The position numbers and the translations under genes are program-made. The notes below the pieces were generated by a model, which saw only the letters and a program-made list of their open reading frames with translations, was not told the origin of the DNA and made no database searches. A DNA stretch of 64,000 nt from NCBI RefSeq assembly GCF_004357995.1, contig NZ_SMTK01000001.1, positions 124,001-188,000 on the forward strand, given 5' to 3'. Position 1 is the first letter of the stretch, and each line of letters begins with the position of its first letter. Origin of the DNA: Arthrobacter crusticola. GTDB taxonomy: Bacteria; Actinomycetota; Actinomycetes; Actinomycetales; Micrococcaceae. This document shows, one piece after another, positions 26,562 to 34,620 of the stretch.

Positions 26562-28103
26562 CTAGGCCGGCAGGCTGAGATACCGGTGGGTGGCGAGCAG
26601 GGCTTTGATCTCCTCGATCGGCAGCGGCCTGCTGAAGTAGAACCCCTGGCCGCTGGCGCATCCCATGGCCCGCAGCTGGTCGGCCTGTTCCTTTGATTCG
26701 ATGCCCTCACAGACAGCCTCAAGTCCGGCTGCCCGGATCAACTGAAGCACTGCAGAGACGAATCCGAACTGGCCGGGTTTGGTATCAAGATCGACAAGAA
26801 GCGAGCGGTCGACCTTCACCATACTGACGGGCAGCTCGCGCAGGTAGCTGATTGAGGAATAGCCTGTCCCAAAATCGTCGATCTCGATCCCCACCCCAAG
26901 CTGCTGGAGGCTGAGAAGCGAGTACATCTCCACTTCGCCCCGCGTCACGATCGCCGATTCGGTGATCTCAATGACCAGGCAGGAGGCAGGGACCCCTGTT
27001 TCCCGCAGGAGGCCGCGCACATAGTCGACCAGGTCGAGCTGCTTCAGCTCAACAGCGGAGAGGTTCACCTGAAGCTGGAAGTCGTCGTCAAGCTGGAGCT
27101 CACGGCGCCATTCGGCAAGGTGGCGCAGAGACGTCGACATCACCCACCGGTCGAGGTCATGAATGACTCCGATTTCCTCGGCGAGGGGGATGAAGACGTC
27201 CGGTGGGATGAGCCCGCGCACCGGGTGCTGCCAACGCACCAGCACCTCAAGCCCGATAATGCGGCTTGTCGCAAGTTCAACCAGCGGCTGGAAGTGAAGA
27301 ACCAGTTCTTCCCGACGGATGGCGGCCCGGAGTTCTGCCGCCATCTGGCTACGGAGCTGCCGCGAATACTGCATCACCGGTTCGAACACCTTAATGATGT
27401 TGCGGCCTTCGCGCTTGGCGGCGTACATCGCGGTGTCTGCATCGAGCAGCAGGTCATCCGCACTCTGCTGGGGGTCTCCAAGCCGTACCCCGATGCTCGC
27501 TCTCGGATGAACCTGCAGGTCCTCCAGCTCGATGATCTCGCCAAGGACTTCGAGGGCGCGTCGTGCCACGCGCATGCAGATCTCCATGCTGGCGGCCGGG
27601 AGGAGAATCGCGAACTCGTCACCGCCGAGACGCGCGACGACGTCGCTCGCACGCACAACGCCGTTGAGCCGGACGCCGACTTCCTGGAGTACGCGGTCAC
27701 CCGCGTCATGCCCGAAGCGGTCGTTGACGTTCTTGAAGGAATCGAGGTCAAGGAGGATCAGCGCCGGCGGGGGCGCCCCGTTCGCCGTCTCGGCTAGCGC
27801 GTTTTCAAGGGCTTCCATCAGGGCCACCCGGTTCGCGAGGCCGGTGAGGGCATCGGACATCGCCATTTTCTTCATATCCCGGTGTGCCTGGCGAAGCATC
27901 GCCGTACGGCTCTCAACCCGCTTCTCGAACTGGTCGTAGACCTGTTCGAGCTCCTCCGCAAGGAGGTTGAAGCCGGTGATCACCGCATCAACTTCATCCC
28001 TTGCATCCGAGGGCTCGATCCGGCTGCTCAACTCGCCGCGCGAAAGTCGGACGATGCTGTCAACCAGCTGGCCTAGCCGCGGATCCTTGTTTTCGGCGTT
28101 CAT
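26562..28103 (-). CDS. GGDEF-EAL protein (cyclic di-GMP synthesis/breakdown)
   Basis: A cytoplasmic 513-residue protein with a HAMP-like helical N-terminus and coiled coil (to about 95), a diguanylate cyclase domain with intact RLGGDEF and an RxxD inhibitory site five residues before it, and a phosphodiesterase domain. The EAL signature reads EVL, but the other catalytic residues are present (QVNLSA, LVIEITES, DDFGTG, VKVDRS, CEGIES). Both activities are possible. The ATG chosen lies just after the stop of the STAS-like gene; an alternative at 28139 overlaps that gene. Overlap and order suggest an operon with that gene. Confidence 0.9.
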   Translation of the reverse strand: MNAENKDPRLGQLVDSIVRLSRGELSSRIEPSDARDEVDAVITGFNLLAEELEQVYDQFEKRVESRTAMLRQAHRDMKKMAMSDALTGLANRVALMEALENALAETANGAPPPALILLDLDSFKNVNDRFGHDAGDRVLQEVGVRLNGVVRASDVVARLGGDEFAILLPAASMEICMRVARRALEVLGEIIELEDLQVHPRASIGVRLGDPQQSADDLLLDADTAMYAAKREGRNIIKVFEPVMQYSRQLRSQMAAELRAAIRREELVLHFQPLVELATSRIIGLEVLVRWQHPVRGLIPPDVFIPLAEEIGVIHDLDRWVMSTSLRHLAEWRRELQLDDDFQLQVNLSAVELKQLDLVDYVRGLLRETGVPASCLVIEITESAIVTRGEVEMYSLLSLQQLGVGIEIDDFGTGYSSISYLRELPVSMVKVDRSLLVDLDTKPGQFGFVSAVLQLIRAAGLEAVCEGIESKEQADQLRAMGCASGQGFYFSRPLPIEEIKALLATHRYLSLPA

Positions 28104-28108
28104 CTTTT

Positions 28109-28543
28109 TCAGGGTACCGGCAGGAAGCCCGCGAGCCATGCAAGCGCTTCGCTCCGCGATGCGAAGAAGGCGACAGGACTTTTGGCATCCTTGCCTCCCA
28201 TGAGGAAGTTGCCAAGCACTCGGTCGACAGGGCTCGATCCCAGGACTGCAACGGCCACGGATACATGCGCTGCACCCAAGACCACGCGGGCATTCCGATC
28301 AATAGATTTCACTCCGCGGATATCGATGAGCAGCGGCCGCGGTACGCCCGCGGCGAGCGCCCGCGCCTGCTCCGCCTTGGATTCCGCGAGGCGCCGGGAG
28401 ATATGCTCACCGGCCGGTAGCGTTATCACCGTAATCCCCTCCGCGGACATGGTTTGCGCTCCGGCCCGTGGCGCATCAGCGCCAACGTCGTCACCGTCGC
28501 CGAGCTTGTCGGCAACATTGTCGATTGTTATCCCATCGGTCAT
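28109..28543 (-). CDS. Small STAS/SpoIIAA-like protein
   Basis: 144 residues. After a ~35-residue acidic disordered part comes an alpha/beta domain in which LLIDIRGVKSIDRNAR and the end SRSEALAWLAGFL match the style of SpoIIAA/STAS-like proteins (a strand and helix ending in a sequence of the type 'SRSEALAWL'). This is a weak family call; a related DUF is possible. Such proteins usually work by protein-protein contacts. It sits 29 bases downstream of the GT2 synthase and directly before the GGDEF-EAL gene, so it could link the synthase and cyclic di-GMP. Confidence 0.6.
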   Translation of the reverse strand: MTDGITIDNVADKLGDGDDVGADAPRAGAQTMSAEGITVITLPAGEHISRRLAESKAEQARALAAGVPRPLLIDIRGVKSIDRNARVVLGAAHVSVAVAVLGSSPVDRVLGNFLMGGKDAKSPVAFFASRSEALAWLAGFLPVP

Positions 28544-28572: not shown

Positions 28573-30885
28573 TCAGCGAACCGAGGCGCGCCTACGGCGG
28601 TCCTTGCCGTCACGCATGTCGCGGTTCAGCCGCCGGTCGCCGTGATACAGGATTGACGCCCAATCGGCGTCTCCCTCCTCCCTGGCAGGGATGGTCGGTG
28701 CTGCTGTTGGAACTGACTTGGGTTTGACGTACAGCCAGTTCAACACTCCCAGCCCGACGTCGACGGCCGAGTTCTTGATGCCAATGTAAGCGCGTATGGC
28801 ACCTGCGGCGAGTACCGCATTCAGGCCGGCGAATACGGCGTTACCCCAGTGTCCCTGACTCGTGTCCCTGACCAGCGTCAGTATCGAGAACGCGACGATC
28901 AGGTAGGGGACAAGGACGTAGAGCCCCGGCGCCGCGGTACGGTTCTTTACCTTGGGCGTGCGGACGAACGGGATCTTGTCACCGGTGAATGCCTGCTGGA
29001 TCGACTTCAGGACGCCGGCGAGATTTACCGGGAGAAGGACGAGGTTGAACCCGTAGATTCTGAAGATATCGGAGAAGCGGTGGCCACAATCACGTAGATC
29101 GCTGCCCATCGCCAGGAAATAGGGGAGGGCGGCAAGGAAAACGACGGGGCTGAGCAGCCTGCTGTCGTAGGGATAGGCAAGGAGGAACAGGAGGCCGAAG
29201 CTTGCCCAGGAAATGGATGCCATGTAGTTCACCCGCAGGAGGATCTCCCTCAGAAGGACCGGCTCGCGTTTGAAGCGGCGTCCCCTTACCTGGTCCCACA
29301 GCTTGGGAAGGATCAGCAGCCCACCGTTGGCCCAGCGGCGGCGCTGCACCACCAGCGAACCGAAGTCCGGGGGCGTGGCACTGTAGCTCAGACGTTCGGG
29401 ATAGTTCATCAGGGTCCATCCGTGGGACCCGAGGTCGACGCTTGACTCGGTGTCCTCGATGACCGTCCGGTCCTGAATGTAGGTCTTGATGTCGAATCCG
29501 CCGACGTTTTCGACCTCGACGATGTCCTCGACAGCCTTTTTCCGGATCACGGCGTTGGCGCCGACCCAGAAGGTCGCCCCGTAGTAGGACATGCCCTGGT
29601 GGAGGATGTGCTGGATATCCGTGGTTGCACCGGCCACCCGCTCGATGCGGGTCGGTGCGCCGCGGAAGGAGGAGTATGGGGTTTGGGTCACCGCGACACG
29701 TTCATTGCCCGGCGATTCCAGCAGGTACACCAGGCGCAGGCAGTAATCGCGCAGCAGGAGCGAATCGGCATCGAGGGTCAGCAGGTAGGTGGTGTCAGGA
29801 ATGTCGAGATCGGCTGGGCCGCCGGCCGGTGCGGGCCGGAGCACTGTGCCGTTTGCGGCTTTTTCCTCAACCCACCGCTGGCCCATCAGGGAGATGTAGG
29901 CGTTCAGGTTCATCGCCTTGTTGGCCTCGTGGGACAGGGAGGCGTACCGCTTGCGTTCGAACGTCGCCAGCTGGGTGGTGAAGATGCGGACAAGCCGCAG
30001 GTAGAGCTCGCGGGTCCGCTCCGGTTCGGGGGCCTCGTTCTGGCTAAGCGCGGCGTTGAGGGCGAGGATGGTCAGCCGCAGTTCGCGTGCGAGGCCCATC
30101 AGGACGAGATCCACGAAAAACTCGTCGACGTGGTCATCCACGCGCTCGGACTCCGCCATTCCCTCGAGCCACGCCGCCGCGGCCTCATACTCGGCGATCA
30201 GCGCGGGCAGCTCTCCGGCGCCCGTGGACCCGGCGCCGTGTCGGCTGTCGAAGTCTGCGAGGACCTGGGTAGCCCGCGCCGCTGGTTCAATAAGGCTCGC
30301 CTCGATATCCACCGTCAGGGCGCGGGTAGCCTCCAGCTTTCCGCGCGCGGCCGGGTCTGTCGGGTTCGTCGGGTCATCCACCAGCAGGACAACCCGCAGA
30401 TCGGGGAATTCCTGCAGGGCCGCGGACCACAATGTGGCGCGGACTACGCGCGGTTCCTCGGCGTAGGACGGAACGAGGACGGTGATGCCGTGCTCGTATG
30501 AAGCGAAGTGGCGGTCAAGCTCCCCGCGGGGAACCCGCCGGTGGTCGCGGAACCGGTACAGGGCGCCCTGGCGGGCAAGCAGGTACATGAGGGCCGAAAA
30601 CGTCAGGAAGGTTACGACGATGAGGTAGGAAACCGCTTCGAACTGGAAACGGAATCCCGCGTCGGGGTTTTCGGCAAACTGCCGGAGGATCGTGGTGACG
30701 ACATAGGTGAGCCAGGCGAGAACCGTCACCACAATGCCCAGCCGGCCGAGGGCGATCTTCCGGTTCGATGGAGTCGGATGAACGATCGACAAAGGCTCGG
30801 ACCGTCGTTCCGCTCCCCACTGGCGCCGTCGCACGGGGCCTTGATCCGGCTCTGTGGAGCGCGGAACGGTAATTGAATTAGACAT
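28573..30885 (-). CDS. Membrane glycosyltransferase family 2 (processive polysaccharide synthase type)
   Basis: 770 residues from ATG 30885, which follows GGGGAGC; an upstream in-frame ATG lacks such a site. Two N-terminal membrane segments precede a GT-A domain with VPSYAEEP, VVLLVDDP, LTLDADSLL and the processivity motif QRRRW. Five or so C-terminal membrane segments follow. The enzyme resembles cellulose, chitin and hyaluronan synthases and probably makes and extrudes a beta-linked polymer. About 150 mostly helical residues are inserted between the VDDP and DAD motifs, which is unusual. No PilZ domain was seen. A secreted GH18 protein is divergently encoded. Confidence 0.88.
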   Translation of the reverse strand: MSNSITVPRSTEPDQGPVRRRQWGAERRSEPLSIVHPTPSNRKIALGRLGIVVTVLAWLTYVVTTILRQFAENPDAGFRFQFEAVSYLIVVTFLTFSALMYLLARQGALYRFRDHRRVPRGELDRHFASYEHGITVLVPSYAEEPRVVRATLWSAALQEFPDLRVVLLVDDPTNPTDPAARGKLEATRALTVDIEASLIEPAARATQVLADFDSRHGAGSTGAGELPALIAEYEAAAAWLEGMAESERVDDHVDEFFVDLVLMGLARELRLTILALNAALSQNEAPEPERTRELYLRLVRIFTTQLATFERKRYASLSHEANKAMNLNAYISLMGQRWVEEKAANGTVLRPAPAGGPADLDIPDTTYLLTLDADSLLLRDYCLRLVYLLESPGNERVAVTQTPYSSFRGAPTRIERVAGATTDIQHILHQGMSYYGATFWVGANAVIRKKAVEDIVEVENVGGFDIKTYIQDRTVIEDTESSVDLGSHGWTLMNYPERLSYSATPPDFGSLVVQRRRWANGGLLILPKLWDQVRGRRFKREPVLLREILLRVNYMASISWASFGLLFLLAYPYDSRLLSPVVFLAALPYFLAMGSDLRDCGHRFSDIFRIYGFNLVLLPVNLAGVLKSIQQAFTGDKIPFVRTPKVKNRTAAPGLYVLVPYLIVAFSILTLVRDTSQGHWGNAVFAGLNAVLAAGAIRAYIGIKNSAVDVGLGVLNWLYVKPKSVPTAAPTIPAREEGDADWASILYHGDRRLNRDMRDGKDRRRRASVR

Positions 30886-31152
30886 ATGCTCCCCAGCATC
30901 CATACAGCAACAGCAGCGTCCTTCAGCAGGCGCATGATCGTTGCAAGACTTGTCCATAGGAGGACAGGATCCTTGTTATACCAGAGATCACTGACAGCGT
31001 ACTCGTTGGATGGCGCTGTCCCGGATCCGGTGCCCGCGAAGCAGTTCCACCTGTGTGACGTGCGTAACAATAGCACCGATGGCGTCCCCTCTCCGACGGC
31101 GCTACACTTCACTGTCGGCCTTCGCTGGGGAGGCCATCATATTGGGGGCACG

Positions 31153-32727
31153 TTGTCCAAGCGTTTTCCAGGCCGCCGGCTTTCCGCCCTGCGGCTCCTC
31201 TTCCTTGTGTGTGTCTCAGGTGCCCTCGTGACCGCATCCGTCGTGGGTTGGACCCGCTTCGATGATGCCCGCGCCGCTGCGAGCGGCAAGCCGTTCTTCG
31301 CCGGATATGTCGACGCGACGGCCACACCCTTTTATGCCTTCGAGAAGCCGCCGACCAGGCAGGGCAGGAATATCGTGCTCTCCTTTGTCGTAGCTGATCC
31401 GGCCGATGACTGCGAACCGTCCTGGGGCGCCGCGTACTCCCTTGACGAAGCCGAATCGACGCTGGATCTGGACCGCCGGATCGCCCACCTATCCCGCAGC
31501 GGCGGGGAGGTGTCGGTGTCCTTCGGCGGCCTGCTCAACACCGAGCTCGCTGCCTCGTGCACCGACGTCCGGAAGCTCACCGCCGCCTACGAAGCCGTCA
31601 TCGACCGGTACGACATCACCACGATCGACCTGGATGTTGAGGGCGGAAACCTCGCCAACACTGAAGCAGGAAAACGCCGTGCCGAGGCCGTCGCAGCGCT
31701 TCAGGAGGACCGGGCAAAGAGTGGCGCCCCGCTCAACGTCTGGCTCACTCTTCCCGTGGCGCCTTCGGGCCTCACGGCTGAAGGGACGGACGCCGTCGCC
31801 CAGATGCTTGCGGCGAAGGTCGATCTCGCCGGCGTGAATGTCATGACCATGGACTACGGGGCATCCAGGACCGAAGGTACGAGCATGCTCGAGGCGTCGG
31901 TCGCAGCAGCGAGGGCAACCCACAGCCAACTGGGCACGCTGTACGGGCGGGCCGGTATCGATCTGGGGCCGCAGACCCTCTGGCGCAAGATCGGCCTGAC
32001 GCCGATGATCGGTCAGAACGACGTTGTCGGCGAGGTGTTCGACACCGATGCGGCCGTGGACTTCAACCGGTTCGCCAAGGAGAACGGCATCGGCCGGATG
32101 TCGATGTGGTCTCTGAACCGGGATGGAAACTGCAGCGCCAATTATGCGGATCTCACGGTGGTATCCGACGGGTGCAGCGGGATCGACCAGAACGGACTCC
32201 AGTTCGCGGAGCTCCTGGGTGACGGGTTCGAGGGCCGTGCATCGACGCTCGTGAAGGGCCCCACTGTGTCGGAGCCCATTGCGACGCCGGTAGCGGACGA
32301 CCCCGAGACGAGCCCCTACCCGATCTGGGAGGAGGAGGGCACCTACACGGAGGATGACCGCGTTGTCTGGCACGGGAACGTCTATGTTGCCAAGTACTGG
32401 ACGCGGGGAGACATTCCCGACAACCCCGTGCTGCAAGCTGAGGAAACTCCGTGGACGATCCTCGGGCCGGTGCTCCCGGGGGAGAAACCTCTGCCGCAGG
32501 TGACGGCACCGGCCGGAACCTACCCCGTCTGGAACCCCAAGACCGTGTACCTCAAGGGCGAGCGCATTCTCCTCGACGGCGACGTCTTCGAAGCGAAATG
32601 GTGGACTCAAGGGGACAGCCCTGAGGCTGCTATGCAGGGCTCGGACGGGTCACCCTGGAACAAGTTGAGCAGCAGCGAGCTCGCCGAACTACTGAAGAAG
32701 GACCCCGGCGGCGTGGCCGGAGGATAG
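31153..32727 (+). CDS. Secreted GH18-like protein with two C-terminal carbohydrate-binding repeats
   Basis: Chitinase-like enzyme of ~524 residues. After one N-terminal membrane segment or signal comes a GH18-type barrel. The catalytic strand reads TTIDLDVE, keeping the last D-x-D-x-E of D-x-x-D-x-D-x-E. Two CBM5/12-like modules end the protein, each with Y-P-x-W near the start and A-K-x-W-T-x-G-D inside. The start is uncertain: TTG 31153, or the rare ATT at 31141, which sits 7 bases after GGGGAGG. It is divergent from the GT2 synthase and may trim or release its polymer. Confidence 0.8.
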   Translation: MSKRFPGRRLSALRLLFLVCVSGALVTASVVGWTRFDDARAAASGKPFFAGYVDATATPFYAFEKPPTRQGRNIVLSFVVADPADDCEPSWGAAYSLDEAESTLDLDRRIAHLSRSGGEVSVSFGGLLNTELAASCTDVRKLTAAYEAVIDRYDITTIDLDVEGGNLANTEAGKRRAEAVAALQEDRAKSGAPLNVWLTLPVAPSGLTAEGTDAVAQMLAAKVDLAGVNVMTMDYGASRTEGTSMLEASVAAARATHSQLGTLYGRAGIDLGPQTLWRKIGLTPMIGQNDVVGEVFDTDAAVDFNRFAKENGIGRMSMWSLNRDGNCSANYADLTVVSDGCSGIDQNGLQFAELLGDGFEGRASTLVKGPTVSEPIATPVADDPETSPYPIWEEEGTYTEDDRVVWHGNVYVAKYWTRGDIPDNPVLQAEETPWTILGPVLPGEKPLPQVTAPAGTYPVWNPKTVYLKGERILLDGDVFEAKWWTQGDSPEAAMQGSDGSPWNKLSSSELAELLKKDPGGVAGG

Positions 32728-33089: not shown

Positions 33090-34214
33090 TCAATCAAAGC
33101 CCTGGACCTTGTGGATAAGTTGTCGTGCAGCGGCGGCCCGGTCATTGGCGCCGGACTGGACGAAGAGCTCCTCGCTCGCTTCGAGGTTCAGCAAGGCTTC
33201 AAGCTCGATGTGCCGGGCGTTATAAGCCTGGCCCAGCAGGAAGCGCGCCTCGGCGGCGGTGTGGGTAGCGAGCAGAGACTCCTGCGAGGTCACTGCCCTC
33301 AGGCGTTCGATCGCTGCATCGAACTGGCCGGTCAGTACGAGCCAATGCGCACGGGTCAATGCCAATTCAAGCCGGTCCCGTTCACTGCCGCCGACAATCG
33401 AGCTGGCCATTTCGGCGCGGTCAATGCATTCAAGTGTCTCAGGCTCAACGACTCCCGCGGCCAGGCGCAGCGCAGCAGAAGCACGGTTGAAGCGGGCCCA
33501 CAGATCAAGATCGTTGGTCGGCGACAGGTTCTCAGCTGCGAGGCGGTGATACTTGGTTCCGTCTTCAACGCGCTGAAGGAGGAATGCCACGTTGCCGATG
33601 GCCCAGTAGCTCATCCCCGACGTCTGCTTGCTGGGGTTGTCCTCAAGAAGCTCGGCAAGGACGAGGCATTCGGTCCAGGCGTCGTTCAGCTGGTCGCTGT
33701 CGGCAAGCGCCGCGATCAACGCATTCTGCGCCTCGATGTGCAGTTCCTGTTGCCCCGGAATGCGCGCGGCGCTTTCGGCCGCACGACGGGCTTCCACGAC
33801 CGCATCGGCGAGGTCGCCGGAGCCCTGCAGCGCCAGCGAGGTCATTGTGCACACTCGCGCGACGAGAGCCGCTGATTGCCCGGTCATAGGGTGATGCTGG
33901 AGGGTGCGGGCAACCATTGCTGATTCTCTGACGAGTCCCTGTTTCCGGAGACTTTCGGCCTGCAGGAAGGTCATGTTCCACCAGGCGTTGTCGTCTTTTA
34001 GCTCGGCGGCCATGGCAGCCGCCTGCTCGGCGATCCGCTGCGTCTGCTCGTAATCCCGCTGGTTCCATGCACTGCGTGCTTGCAGTTCGAGGAGGACCTG
34101 CTCTCCTGTTATTTCCTGCAGGACCTTCACCACCTTCAGCTCGCGGACGGGGCCTGGCGGCACCGTCCAACAACGTGGGCCACACGCGGCCGGGCGCCCC
34201 GTGATGGCCAGCAT
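33090..34214 (-). CDS. TPR-like helical-repeat protein
   Basis: 374-residue soluble protein made almost wholly of paired amphipathic helices in units of about 35-45 residues (A-x3-A-x-L patterns with repeated W/Y/L and A-A), like TPR proteins. There is no clear HTH domain, enzyme motif, signal or membrane segment. The start at 34214 follows AGGGG; the first ~30 residues look odd and a later start is possible. It is divergent from a secreted 47-residue peptide gene 139 bases away. This recalls TPR receptors of the RRNPP type (Rap, NprR, PlcR) paired with peptides, but the link is only inferred. Confidence 0.75.
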   Translation of the reverse strand: MLAITGRPAACGPRCWTVPPGPVRELKVVKVLQEITGEQVLLELQARSAWNQRDYEQTQRIAEQAAAMAAELKDDNAWWNMTFLQAESLRKQGLVRESAMVARTLQHHPMTGQSAALVARVCTMTSLALQGSGDLADAVVEARRAAESAARIPGQQELHIEAQNALIAALADSDQLNDAWTECLVLAELLEDNPSKQTSGMSYWAIGNVAFLLQRVEDGTKYHRLAAENLSPTNDLDLWARFNRASAALRLAAGVVEPETLECIDRAEMASSIVGGSERDRLELALTRAHWLVLTGQFDAAIERLRAVTSQESLLATHTAAEARFLLGQAYNARHIELEALLNLEASEELFVQSGANDRAAAARQLIHKVQGFD

Positions 34215-34353
34215 GGACCCCTGAAATTAAATAGTCAAAAATTGTTACGATTGTGACTGGTGTGGCGGAACAACATTTCGTAGACTGAATCTGCTATAGC
34301 AAGGCAGAAGACCGCTTATGTCTTTTGCTTCCATCTCACCTTGAGGACAAATT

Positions 34354-34497
34354 ATGAAGAAGCTCACCTCCGCACTCCTGCTGTCGGTACTTTTCGTCGC
34401 CGCAGGAAGCTCGGCAGCCGTTGCCGCCGACTCCACGTCGACGAAGTCGGGCTCGACCACCGTCAGCACCGATCGCATCAACAACTGGCCGTACTGA
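34354..34497 (+). CDS. Short secreted peptide (47 aa), candidate signal peptide precursor
   Basis: An ORF too short for usual gene calling. It begins MKKLTSALLL, has an Ala/Val-rich hydrophobic core ending AAVAA, and then a Ser/Thr-rich stretch ending TDRINNWPY. GAGGA lies 7 bases before the ATG. Export by Sec with cleavage after AVAA would release about 22 residues. A further cut could yield a short C-terminal peptide such as INNWPY, like Phr pheromones. It is divergent from the TPR-like gene and followed by hairpins and a terminator, so it forms a complete one-gene unit. Confidence 0.7.
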   Translation: MKKLTSALLLSVLFVAAGSSAAVAADSTSTKSGSTTVSTDRINNWPY

Positions 34498-34509
34498 TTC
34501 TTTCTCCAG

Positions 34510-34567
34510 TCGGTTCCAAAGGGAACCGATTGAAAGTAAAGAAAGACCCTAGCCGGACCTGTCCGGC
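34510..34567 (+). other. Two hairpins just after the peptide gene
   Basis: TCGGTTCC (34510-34517) pairs with GGAACCGA (34522-34529), loop AAAG. GCCGGAC (34552-34558) pairs with GTCCGGC (34561-34567), loop CT. Neither is followed by a T-run. They may stabilise the 3' end of the peptide mRNA. Confidence 0.5.
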
Positions 34568-34578
34568 AGTGTGATAAG

Positions 34579-34620
34579 GGCCGTGAACCCGCCTCCTGGG
34601 GGGCGAGTTCACGGCCTTTC
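34579..34620 (+). terminator. Terminator after the secreted-peptide gene
   Basis: Ten-base arms GGCCGTGAAC (34579-34588) and GTTCACGGCC (34607-34616) lead into TTTCC. The next gene (fumarylacetoacetase family) starts 43 bases later and is therefore probably separately transcribed. Confidence 0.75.

Follow-up and report, generated by a model that had tools for sequence, protein, structure and literature searches.

Do the two divergent genes at positions 33,090 to 34,620 of this stretch of the Arthrobacter crusticola genome encode a peptide pheromone and its cytoplasmic receptor, and, if so, on what would a receptor without a helix–turn–helix (HTH) domain act? The original prediction, made from the letters of the window (the whole stretch of DNA analysed, 64,000 nucleotides), had paired the two products as a peptide-signalling system on the basis of gene order and shape. 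This pairing is largely supported by the conservation of the pair, by the hexapeptide at the end of the small protein and by the predicted TPR fold of the larger one. The features of the locus, in window coordinates, are listed below.

26562–28139, minus strand: HAMP-GGDEF-EAL protein carrying the catalytic and I-site motifs and proposed to be the receptor's effector; a homologue lies near 67 of 67 HTH-less receptors
28109–28543, minus strand: small DUF7793 protein (sequence, Pfam), overlapping the start of the GGDEF-EAL gene
28573–30957, minus strand: group 2 glycosyltransferase (GT2), lying between receptor and GGDEF-EAL gene solely in part of the genus; perhaps an exopolysaccharide synthase
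30886–32727, plus strand: CBM5/12-containing protein that also matches GH18, under the Pfam cut-off; convergent with the receptor gene; co-occurs with the glycosyltransferase in relatives
33090–34130, minus strand: HTH-less TPR receptor of about 346 residues, its start placed by comparison at the GTG at 34130 or 34133
34244–34265, plus strand: element GTTACGATTGTGACTGGTGTGG / GTTACNNNNGTGACTGGTGTGG, GTnAC repeats spaced by 9 bp, upstream of the precursor gene; similar in part of the genus
34343–34347, plus strand: ribosome-binding site GAGGA (sequence)
34354–34497, plus strand: pheromone precursor of 47 residues with a Sec-type N terminus, a Ser/Thr-rich spacer and a C-terminal INNWPY; in 36 of 38 genus genomes a homologue adjoins the receptor gene
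34477–34494, plus strand: predicted mature signal or core INNWPY (ends approximate), equivalent of the unit found one to six times in relatives
34498–34617, plus strand: three hairpins 3′ of the precursor gene (about 34498–34543, 34552–34567 and 34577–34616; sequence, folding)

The small open reading frame (ORF) is confirmed. It has its own ribosome site, a Ser/Thr-rich spacer and the C-terminal end TDRINNWPY, all as first described. Its N terminus consists of Lys-Lys followed by a hydrophobic stretch with A-x-A sites, which agrees, as a prediction by simple rules, with the Sec signal proposed earlier. Hairpins and a terminator had been thought to close the gene: the hairpins stand (minimum free energy −69.9 kcal/mol, z −7.36, with 0 of 200 shuffles equally good), but a simple scan of the plus strand lists no intrinsic terminator behind the precursor. 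The GTnAC repeats upstream, which might be read as MtrA-type boxes, form a pattern that, at up to three mismatches, matches five times in the window's genome against five times for the reversed control; a short form is present at 22 of 67 HTH-less loci. The exact NNWPY pattern matches once in the window's genome, with no second NNWPY-coding place, and neither precursor nor receptor matches a Pfam or an NCBIfam family over cut-off.

The other gene encodes, as predicted, a divergent helical-repeat protein without HTH, although its start has to be revised. The first 27–28 codons read from 34214 are common only to the two closest relatives (L004 and L005). Matches in other relatives mostly start at receptor residues 19–38, and the few reaching further upstream run through stop codons or weak similarity. 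Because similarity within the family mostly begins behind these codons, a start at 34214 is probably too far upstream, and we correct it to the GTG at 34130 or 34133, which gives about 346 residues instead of 374 (starts were assigned by rule over 42 aligned sequences, taking the nearest ATG, else GTG or TTG).

A TPR fold on structure prediction had been set beforehand as a test of the original proposal, and AlphaFold2 returns one at high confidence: the model of the window receptor, computed with 53 sequences, is an all-helical TPR superhelix (mean pLDDT 94.0, pTM 0.86), helix following helix from residue 2 onward. No Pfam TPR model scores above cut-off in the window receptor itself; an HTH-bearing relative (L139) is above the Pfam cut-offs for HTH_31, HTH_3, TPR_12, TPR_2 and TPR_14. 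Fold comparison of the model finds NprR (5dbk, Z 21.2), RapI (4i1a, Z 20.6) and Rap-pLS20 (6t3h, Z 19.7), and, above NprR and Rap, the eukaryotic protein LGN (Z 28.3), and a profile search of solved structures with the window receptor finds no RRNPP receptor chain up to an E value of 10. Since the RRNPP matches are weaker than that to LGN, the comparison shows a TPR superhelix and not kinship with RRNPP receptors. Rap proteins have an N-terminal three-helix bundle for protein–protein contact, as described in PMC9765709. Of 42 invariant residues in the receptor, 13 lie in the helices spanning residues 168–184 and 208–224, which, on the model, make up a possible binding site.

The divergent pair is conserved. 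The receptor is present in 38 of 38 genomes of the genus and a precursor homologue adjoins it in 36; in the other two (G020 and G029), a contig end falls between receptor and precursor. A scan of the genome collection returned 225 relatives, and the best 80 of the 225, which were retained, carry the titles Arthrobacter, Paenarthrobacter, Pseudarthrobacter or Sinomonas, except two. One contig with an Arthrobacter-type locus (L088) comes from a record titled Vibrio cholerae strain 35D, a title that looks wrong. Among distinct, non-truncated receptor loci of the family, 111 of 113 have such a precursor, so the expectation that the peptide gene would accompany TPR homologues in relatives is borne out. 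In this set, 18 hits truncated where a contig or locus ends were dropped and identical precursor–receptor pairs merged; it omits L033–L062, L195–L230, L002, L003, L193 and L194. At 110 loci, a divergent Sec-type precursor was recovered by one filter, which required a Lys/Arg start, a hydrophobic stretch and a WP motif, and at a further locus (L179) the precursor starts with TTG and contains VGDWPH six times. No precursor was found at the remaining two: the HTH locus L182, and G017, whose second receptor stands at a contig end. As a control, the same filter applied elsewhere in the 836,110 bases of 80 named loci returned 14 ORFs, 11 of which are one ORF in one clade, against 79 at the receptors. 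The pairing is more than chance, because homologous pairs recur in genus and family. Seven genomes (G011, G012, G017, G031, G035, G036 and G037) have tandem receptors whose signals differ (in G011, VGNWPD beside LIDDWPH); one precursor of G017 and one of G035 sit at the end of another contig.

A feature of the precursors is a hexapeptide of the form [IV]xxWPx, present in one to six copies; that of the window is INNWPY. Among the 110 precursors, which are 41–117 residues long and in 107 cases contain A-x-A within residues 15–34, 44 have one copy, 35 two, 21 three, seven four, two five and one six. This count is anchored on WP and omits an extra degenerate copy, [TIV]GNWAD, in L122, L123, L128, L129 and L134. 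The hexapeptide is under selection: within the 66 multi-copy precursors, comparison of the copies over the six codons from W−3 to P+1 gives 242 synonymous differences and no nonsynonymous one. These are sums over 175 unit pairs that, coming from related precursors, are non-independent; 43 of the 175 pairs are identical in DNA. The copies have drifted at silent positions while the peptide was kept, as expected if each copy is a pheromone. Across 221 copies, W−3 is Ile or Val in 216 and W−2 is Gly in 198 and Asn in 18; W−1 is mostly Asn or Trp and P+1 mostly Asp or Asn, with Tyr, Phe, His and Gly also at P+1 in the window's genus. Cys does not occur in the hexapeptide position counts. A conserved peptide C terminus, which the original prediction required, is found in that [IV]xxWPx is kept, W-P having been the search anchor and the surrounding residues not.

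Between species the picture depends on the group. Pooled pN/pS in the C-terminal part and in the first 26 codons is 0.52 versus 0.33 in the window's group (n = 23), 0.07 versus 0.15 in 33 HTH-type precursors ending in WPDPM and 0.00 versus 0.04 in 16 precursors ending in IGWWPN. Judged by these ratios, the window's group has a diverging signal; the HTH-type and IGWWPN groups keep theirs. Co-variation of the C terminus with the receptor had also been proposed as a check. The part of it that stands is co-inheritance: the hexamer changes 40 times on the receptor tree, against a mean of 76.5 and a lowest value of 71 in 200 shuffles, which is what neighbouring genes of related loci show anyway.

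The receptors fall into two types. An XRE-type HTH precedes the TPRs at 45 of the 113 loci and is absent from the other 68, the window's branch included. A tree of 111 receptor cores, a quick one with long branches, 29 of 108 forks open and no direction given, has a single change of HTH state. Loss in the window's branch is the likelier course, because a more distant XRE-TPR paralogue has the HTH. This paralogue, in the window's own genome (G000:C2:168975-169835, L002), has 407 residues and is 36% identical to the window receptor, and the filter found no precursor beside it. A second receptor match at 29–37% identity occurs in 24 of 38 genus genomes, the window's included; the HTH was checked in the window's genome only.

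The HTH branch has a distinctive intergenic space. CTTGACA...TGTCAA is present at 41 of 43 loci and the palindrome ACATTTTACAATGT, with at most one mismatch, at 35 of 43; at HTH-type loci among L120–L162, the gap between precursor and receptor contains a strongly conserved stretch CTTGACA...ACATTTTACAATGT...TGTCAACAAG, which is likely to be an operator with a divergent promoter. With at most one mismatch, the palindrome occurs once, at its own locus, in four of five genomes and is absent from the fifth, which suggests autoregulation in the HTH branch. For the same reason we discarded it as a means of finding a regulon, as it pointed to no target genes. In the HTH clade, an ABC transporter gene lies about 3 kb from the pair at 33 of 34 loci, and all 34 have a molybdopterin oxidoreductase gene near it. 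No neighbour group is common to all three clades among the 40 largest groups.

HTH-less receptors have a different neighbour. All 67 HTH-less loci counted have a GGDEF-EAL gene nearby (59 in the initial flanks, the window itself and seven in longer flanks), 66 downstream on the same strand and one upstream; the 68th HTH-less locus, the second receptor of L097, is covered in the 81-receptor count below. At six of the longer-flank loci (two each in G012 and G037, one each in G028 and G014), the gene lies behind a GH18–GT2–DUF7793 block like that of the window, and in G190 it lies on the other side of the receptor, on the same strand. By contrast, none of the 45 HTH loci has a GGDEF-EAL match within flanks of about 5 kb (most of 34 loci) or about 1.5 kb (11 loci). 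Counted over 81 receptors of the named loci, leaving out three truncated loci (L087, L109 and L149), the gene is found at 29 of 30 receptors in the window's genus, at all 17 of the IGWWP clade and at none of the 34 with HTH; at the 30th genus receptor the sequence is cut two bases behind the receptor. Across these genomes, absence of the HTH is associated with linkage to GGDEF-EAL.

In the IGWWP clade, the end of the receptor gene and the beginning of the GGDEF-EAL gene share 4 nt at 11 of 17 loci, with gaps of 0–2 nt at three and about 455 nt at three (measured from the first in-frame ATG or GTG). Tandem receptors have one GGDEF-EAL gene in common. Of 36 full ORFs, 35 retain the motifs GGDEF, EAL with DDFGTG and the RxxD I-site. 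The one that lacks them is that of L094, a locus in which the FAA hydrolase match, too, is partial; either decay or a sequencing error would account for this, as it would for L244 (G014:C14), where the G014 receptor matches in two frames. As the window's whole genome has four GGDEF matches, chance linkage is unlikely. On the precursor side, the flank in the window's genus contains an FAA hydrolase gene (26 of 30 receptors) and gltX (25 of 30), and that of the IGWWP clade contains neither; receptor, precursor and enzyme therefore stayed together through a change of this flank. DUF7793-like genes accompany 14 of 30 genus and 15 of 17 IGWWP receptors, partly on the other side. No operon is evident in the window, because the GH18-like, GT2 and DUF7793 genes separate the receptor from the GGDEF-EAL gene.

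In a sample of the order, with at most five candidates per genome scored, 22 of 396 genomes match the receptor at an E value of 1e-40; every one of the 22 belongs to the window's family, which contributes 35 genomes to the sample. In a sample of the phylum, 3 of 396 match at 1e-15, one of them in another family (1.8e-22), where the filter found no precursor within 3.7 kb. A mobile-element origin was considered and rejected, no relative of the receptor having been found in the viral_contigs, plasmid or phage collections.

Signal-like sequences also occur on their own. The pattern [VI]GNWPD matches single unrelated ORFs in other families, and in another family of the order (L200/L215, G170:C1:4323289-4323369) there is a 174-codon frame full of differently made GNWP repeats. 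Six orphan IGNWPDP[MI] ORFs were seen (L230:3063-3162, G042:C12; L229:3177, G218:C3; L228:2819, G286:C3; L225:2624, G042:C15; L227:2449, G286:C11; L226:2956, G042:C17), with no receptor beside them within 5.5–6.5 kb. One has four copies and no Sec leader, two are about 11 residues long and one has a Sec-type leader; one contains both IGWWPN and IGNWPDPM, in a genome with both receptor types, and one adjoins unknown bases.

We put the probability at about three in four that the locus encodes an RRNPP-like peptide-pheromone/receptor pair of Micrococcaceae whose HTH-less receptor acts on c-di-GMP turnover. The Sec pathway would export the 47-residue precursor, and extracellular trimming would leave a short peptide around INNWPY. 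An oligopeptide permease would then take this peptide back up (the window's genome has six SBP_bac_5 matches, oligopeptide-type solute-binding proteins), and the cytoplasmic TPR protein would bind it in its groove. The receptor of the HTH sister branch is probably a transcription factor that controls, as a minimum, its own divergent promoter. As the HTH is missing from the window receptor, the GGDEF-EAL enzyme encoded in its neighbourhood is the most likely target; the receptor probably controls this enzyme, and the level of peptide would set c-di-GMP turnover. Output may also run through the neighbouring polysaccharide-synthase gene of the window, which is plausible because the block between receptor and GGDEF-EAL gene encodes a GT2 protein and a CBM5/12/GH18-like protein. 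Going further, we see roughly even odds for an actinomycetotal form of one-component peptide quorum sensing in which the HTH-less receptor became a peptide-controlled regulatory partner of the c-di-GMP enzyme, forming a direct switch from pheromone to second messenger, while its HTH sister stayed a transcription factor and orphan ORFs, one of them with both signals, add cross-talk in some genomes.

The principal competitor to control of the GGDEF-EAL enzyme also takes the locus for a signalling pair and has the HTH-less receptor act through another protein, by sequestering the peptide or through an XRE-TPR paralogue, the GGDEF-EAL gene being merely a stable neighbour. The XRE-TPR paralogue of the window's genome, with no precursor found beside it, the second receptor matches at 29–37% identity in 24 of 38 genus genomes and the genes that separate receptor and GGDEF-EAL in the window all speak for it. 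It is nevertheless unlikely, though it deserves to be taken seriously, given that GGDEF-EAL stays with HTH-less receptors across clades in which the other flank differs, that the two genes overlap by 4 nt at 11 of 17 loci of one clade and that the enzyme was not found at any of the 45 HTH loci within the flanks examined. The same parts would serve an export–import timer or a self-sensing loop within one cell, in place of population-density sensing. Orphan signal ORFs without a Sec leader in some relatives would fit such a circuit, but the precursors linked to receptors retain Sec-type leaders, and we regard it as improbable.

Readings in which the peptide is no pheromone fare worse. RiPP precursors, too, can carry repeated short cores behind a leader, and the peptide might be an antimicrobial or RiPP precursor with the TPR protein as its regulator or immunity factor; the ABC transporter (33 of 34) and molybdopterin oxidoreductase (34 of 34) genes kept near the pair in the HTH clade could be taken in the same sense. 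Set against this are the lack of a neighbour common to the three clades among the 40 largest groups, a leader that is of Sec type by simple rules, hexapeptide counts free of Cys and a TPR protein that adjoins the precursor throughout, which together make such a role very improbable. We give still less credence to a conserved membrane or envelope peptide that carries no signal: a Sec-type leader and short length would suit one, yet the spacer varies freely while the residues of the hexapeptide are kept and its copies differ silently only, and linkage ties the gene to that of a TPR protein. A pheromone whose receptor controls c-di-GMP turnover remains the preferred reading, and it is on this reading that the locus is compared below.

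Cytoplasmic peptide-pheromone receptors have been described from Bacillota and their mobile elements, and a large survey of RRNPP systems, which proposed new subfamilies, covered Firmicutes and virus genomes only (PMC10075063). The main text of a review of quorum sensing in Actinobacteria does not contain the words RNPP, RRNPP, Rap or oligopeptide (PMC4748050). The original prediction had held that a counterpart in an Arthrobacter-like actinobacterium would be new; we found no earlier report of such a system in Actinobacteria, and no paper containing the motif strings, in the open-access literature searched. If the proposal is right, the Arthrobacter counterpart would carry the principle of the cytoplasmic peptide pheromone to a second phylum and would yield concrete hexapeptides for synthesis and testing in common soil bacteria. 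Through the GGDEF-EAL linkage, it would also become possible to test whether a peptide signal leads directly to c-di-GMP.

The published hallmarks of RRNPP systems include a small precursor of 10–100 residues, a receptor of 250–500 residues made of TPRs, adjacency of the two genes and Sec export, as given in PMC10075063. The window precursor has 47 residues (the longest of 110, with 117, exceeds the range), the receptor about 346, the AlphaFold2 superhelix is made of TPRs and the genes are adjacent at 111 of 113 family loci. In all, four of the five published criteria are found here; for the fifth, Sec export, the agreement is at the level of simple sequence rules only.

The phage arbitrium system AimR–AimP likewise consists of a TPR receptor and a short peptide from a small precursor. 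The window system pairs a TPR receptor with a short peptide of a small precursor in the same manner; unlike AimR, its receptor has no relatives found in the viral_contigs, phage or plasmid collections. Closer in form is Rap–Phr of Bacillus, in which an HTH-less TPR receptor is also encoded beside a small precursor with a short pheromone (export being predicted here). Rap–Phr precursors with more than one pheromone are known, and duplicated pheromones are described for Rap3T–Phr3T and Rap105–Phr105 (PMC11343458). The present system differs in its phylum, in a unit that reaches six copies in relatives and in that no sequence similarity to solved RRNPP chains was found. The partners differ too: Rap proteins have been solved with Spo0F or ComA, whereas here it is a GGDEF-EAL gene that is linked. 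The HTH sister branch, with its HTH and TPR receptor and its small precursor of predicted export, resembles NprR–NprX and PlcR–PapR of the Bacillus cereus group. It departs from them in its signal of the [IV]GNWPDPM type in up to six copies, in its divergent genes with a conserved palindrome between them and in belonging to Actinomycetota. In tying a quorum signal to c-di-GMP, the proposed system would be like DSF/RpfR of Burkholderia, whose signal is a fatty acid (PMC13220807), and unlike it in using a peptide and a separate TPR protein. Judged from its genes, what would set the system apart from the known RRNPP systems is its phylum together with the proposed tie to c-di-GMP.
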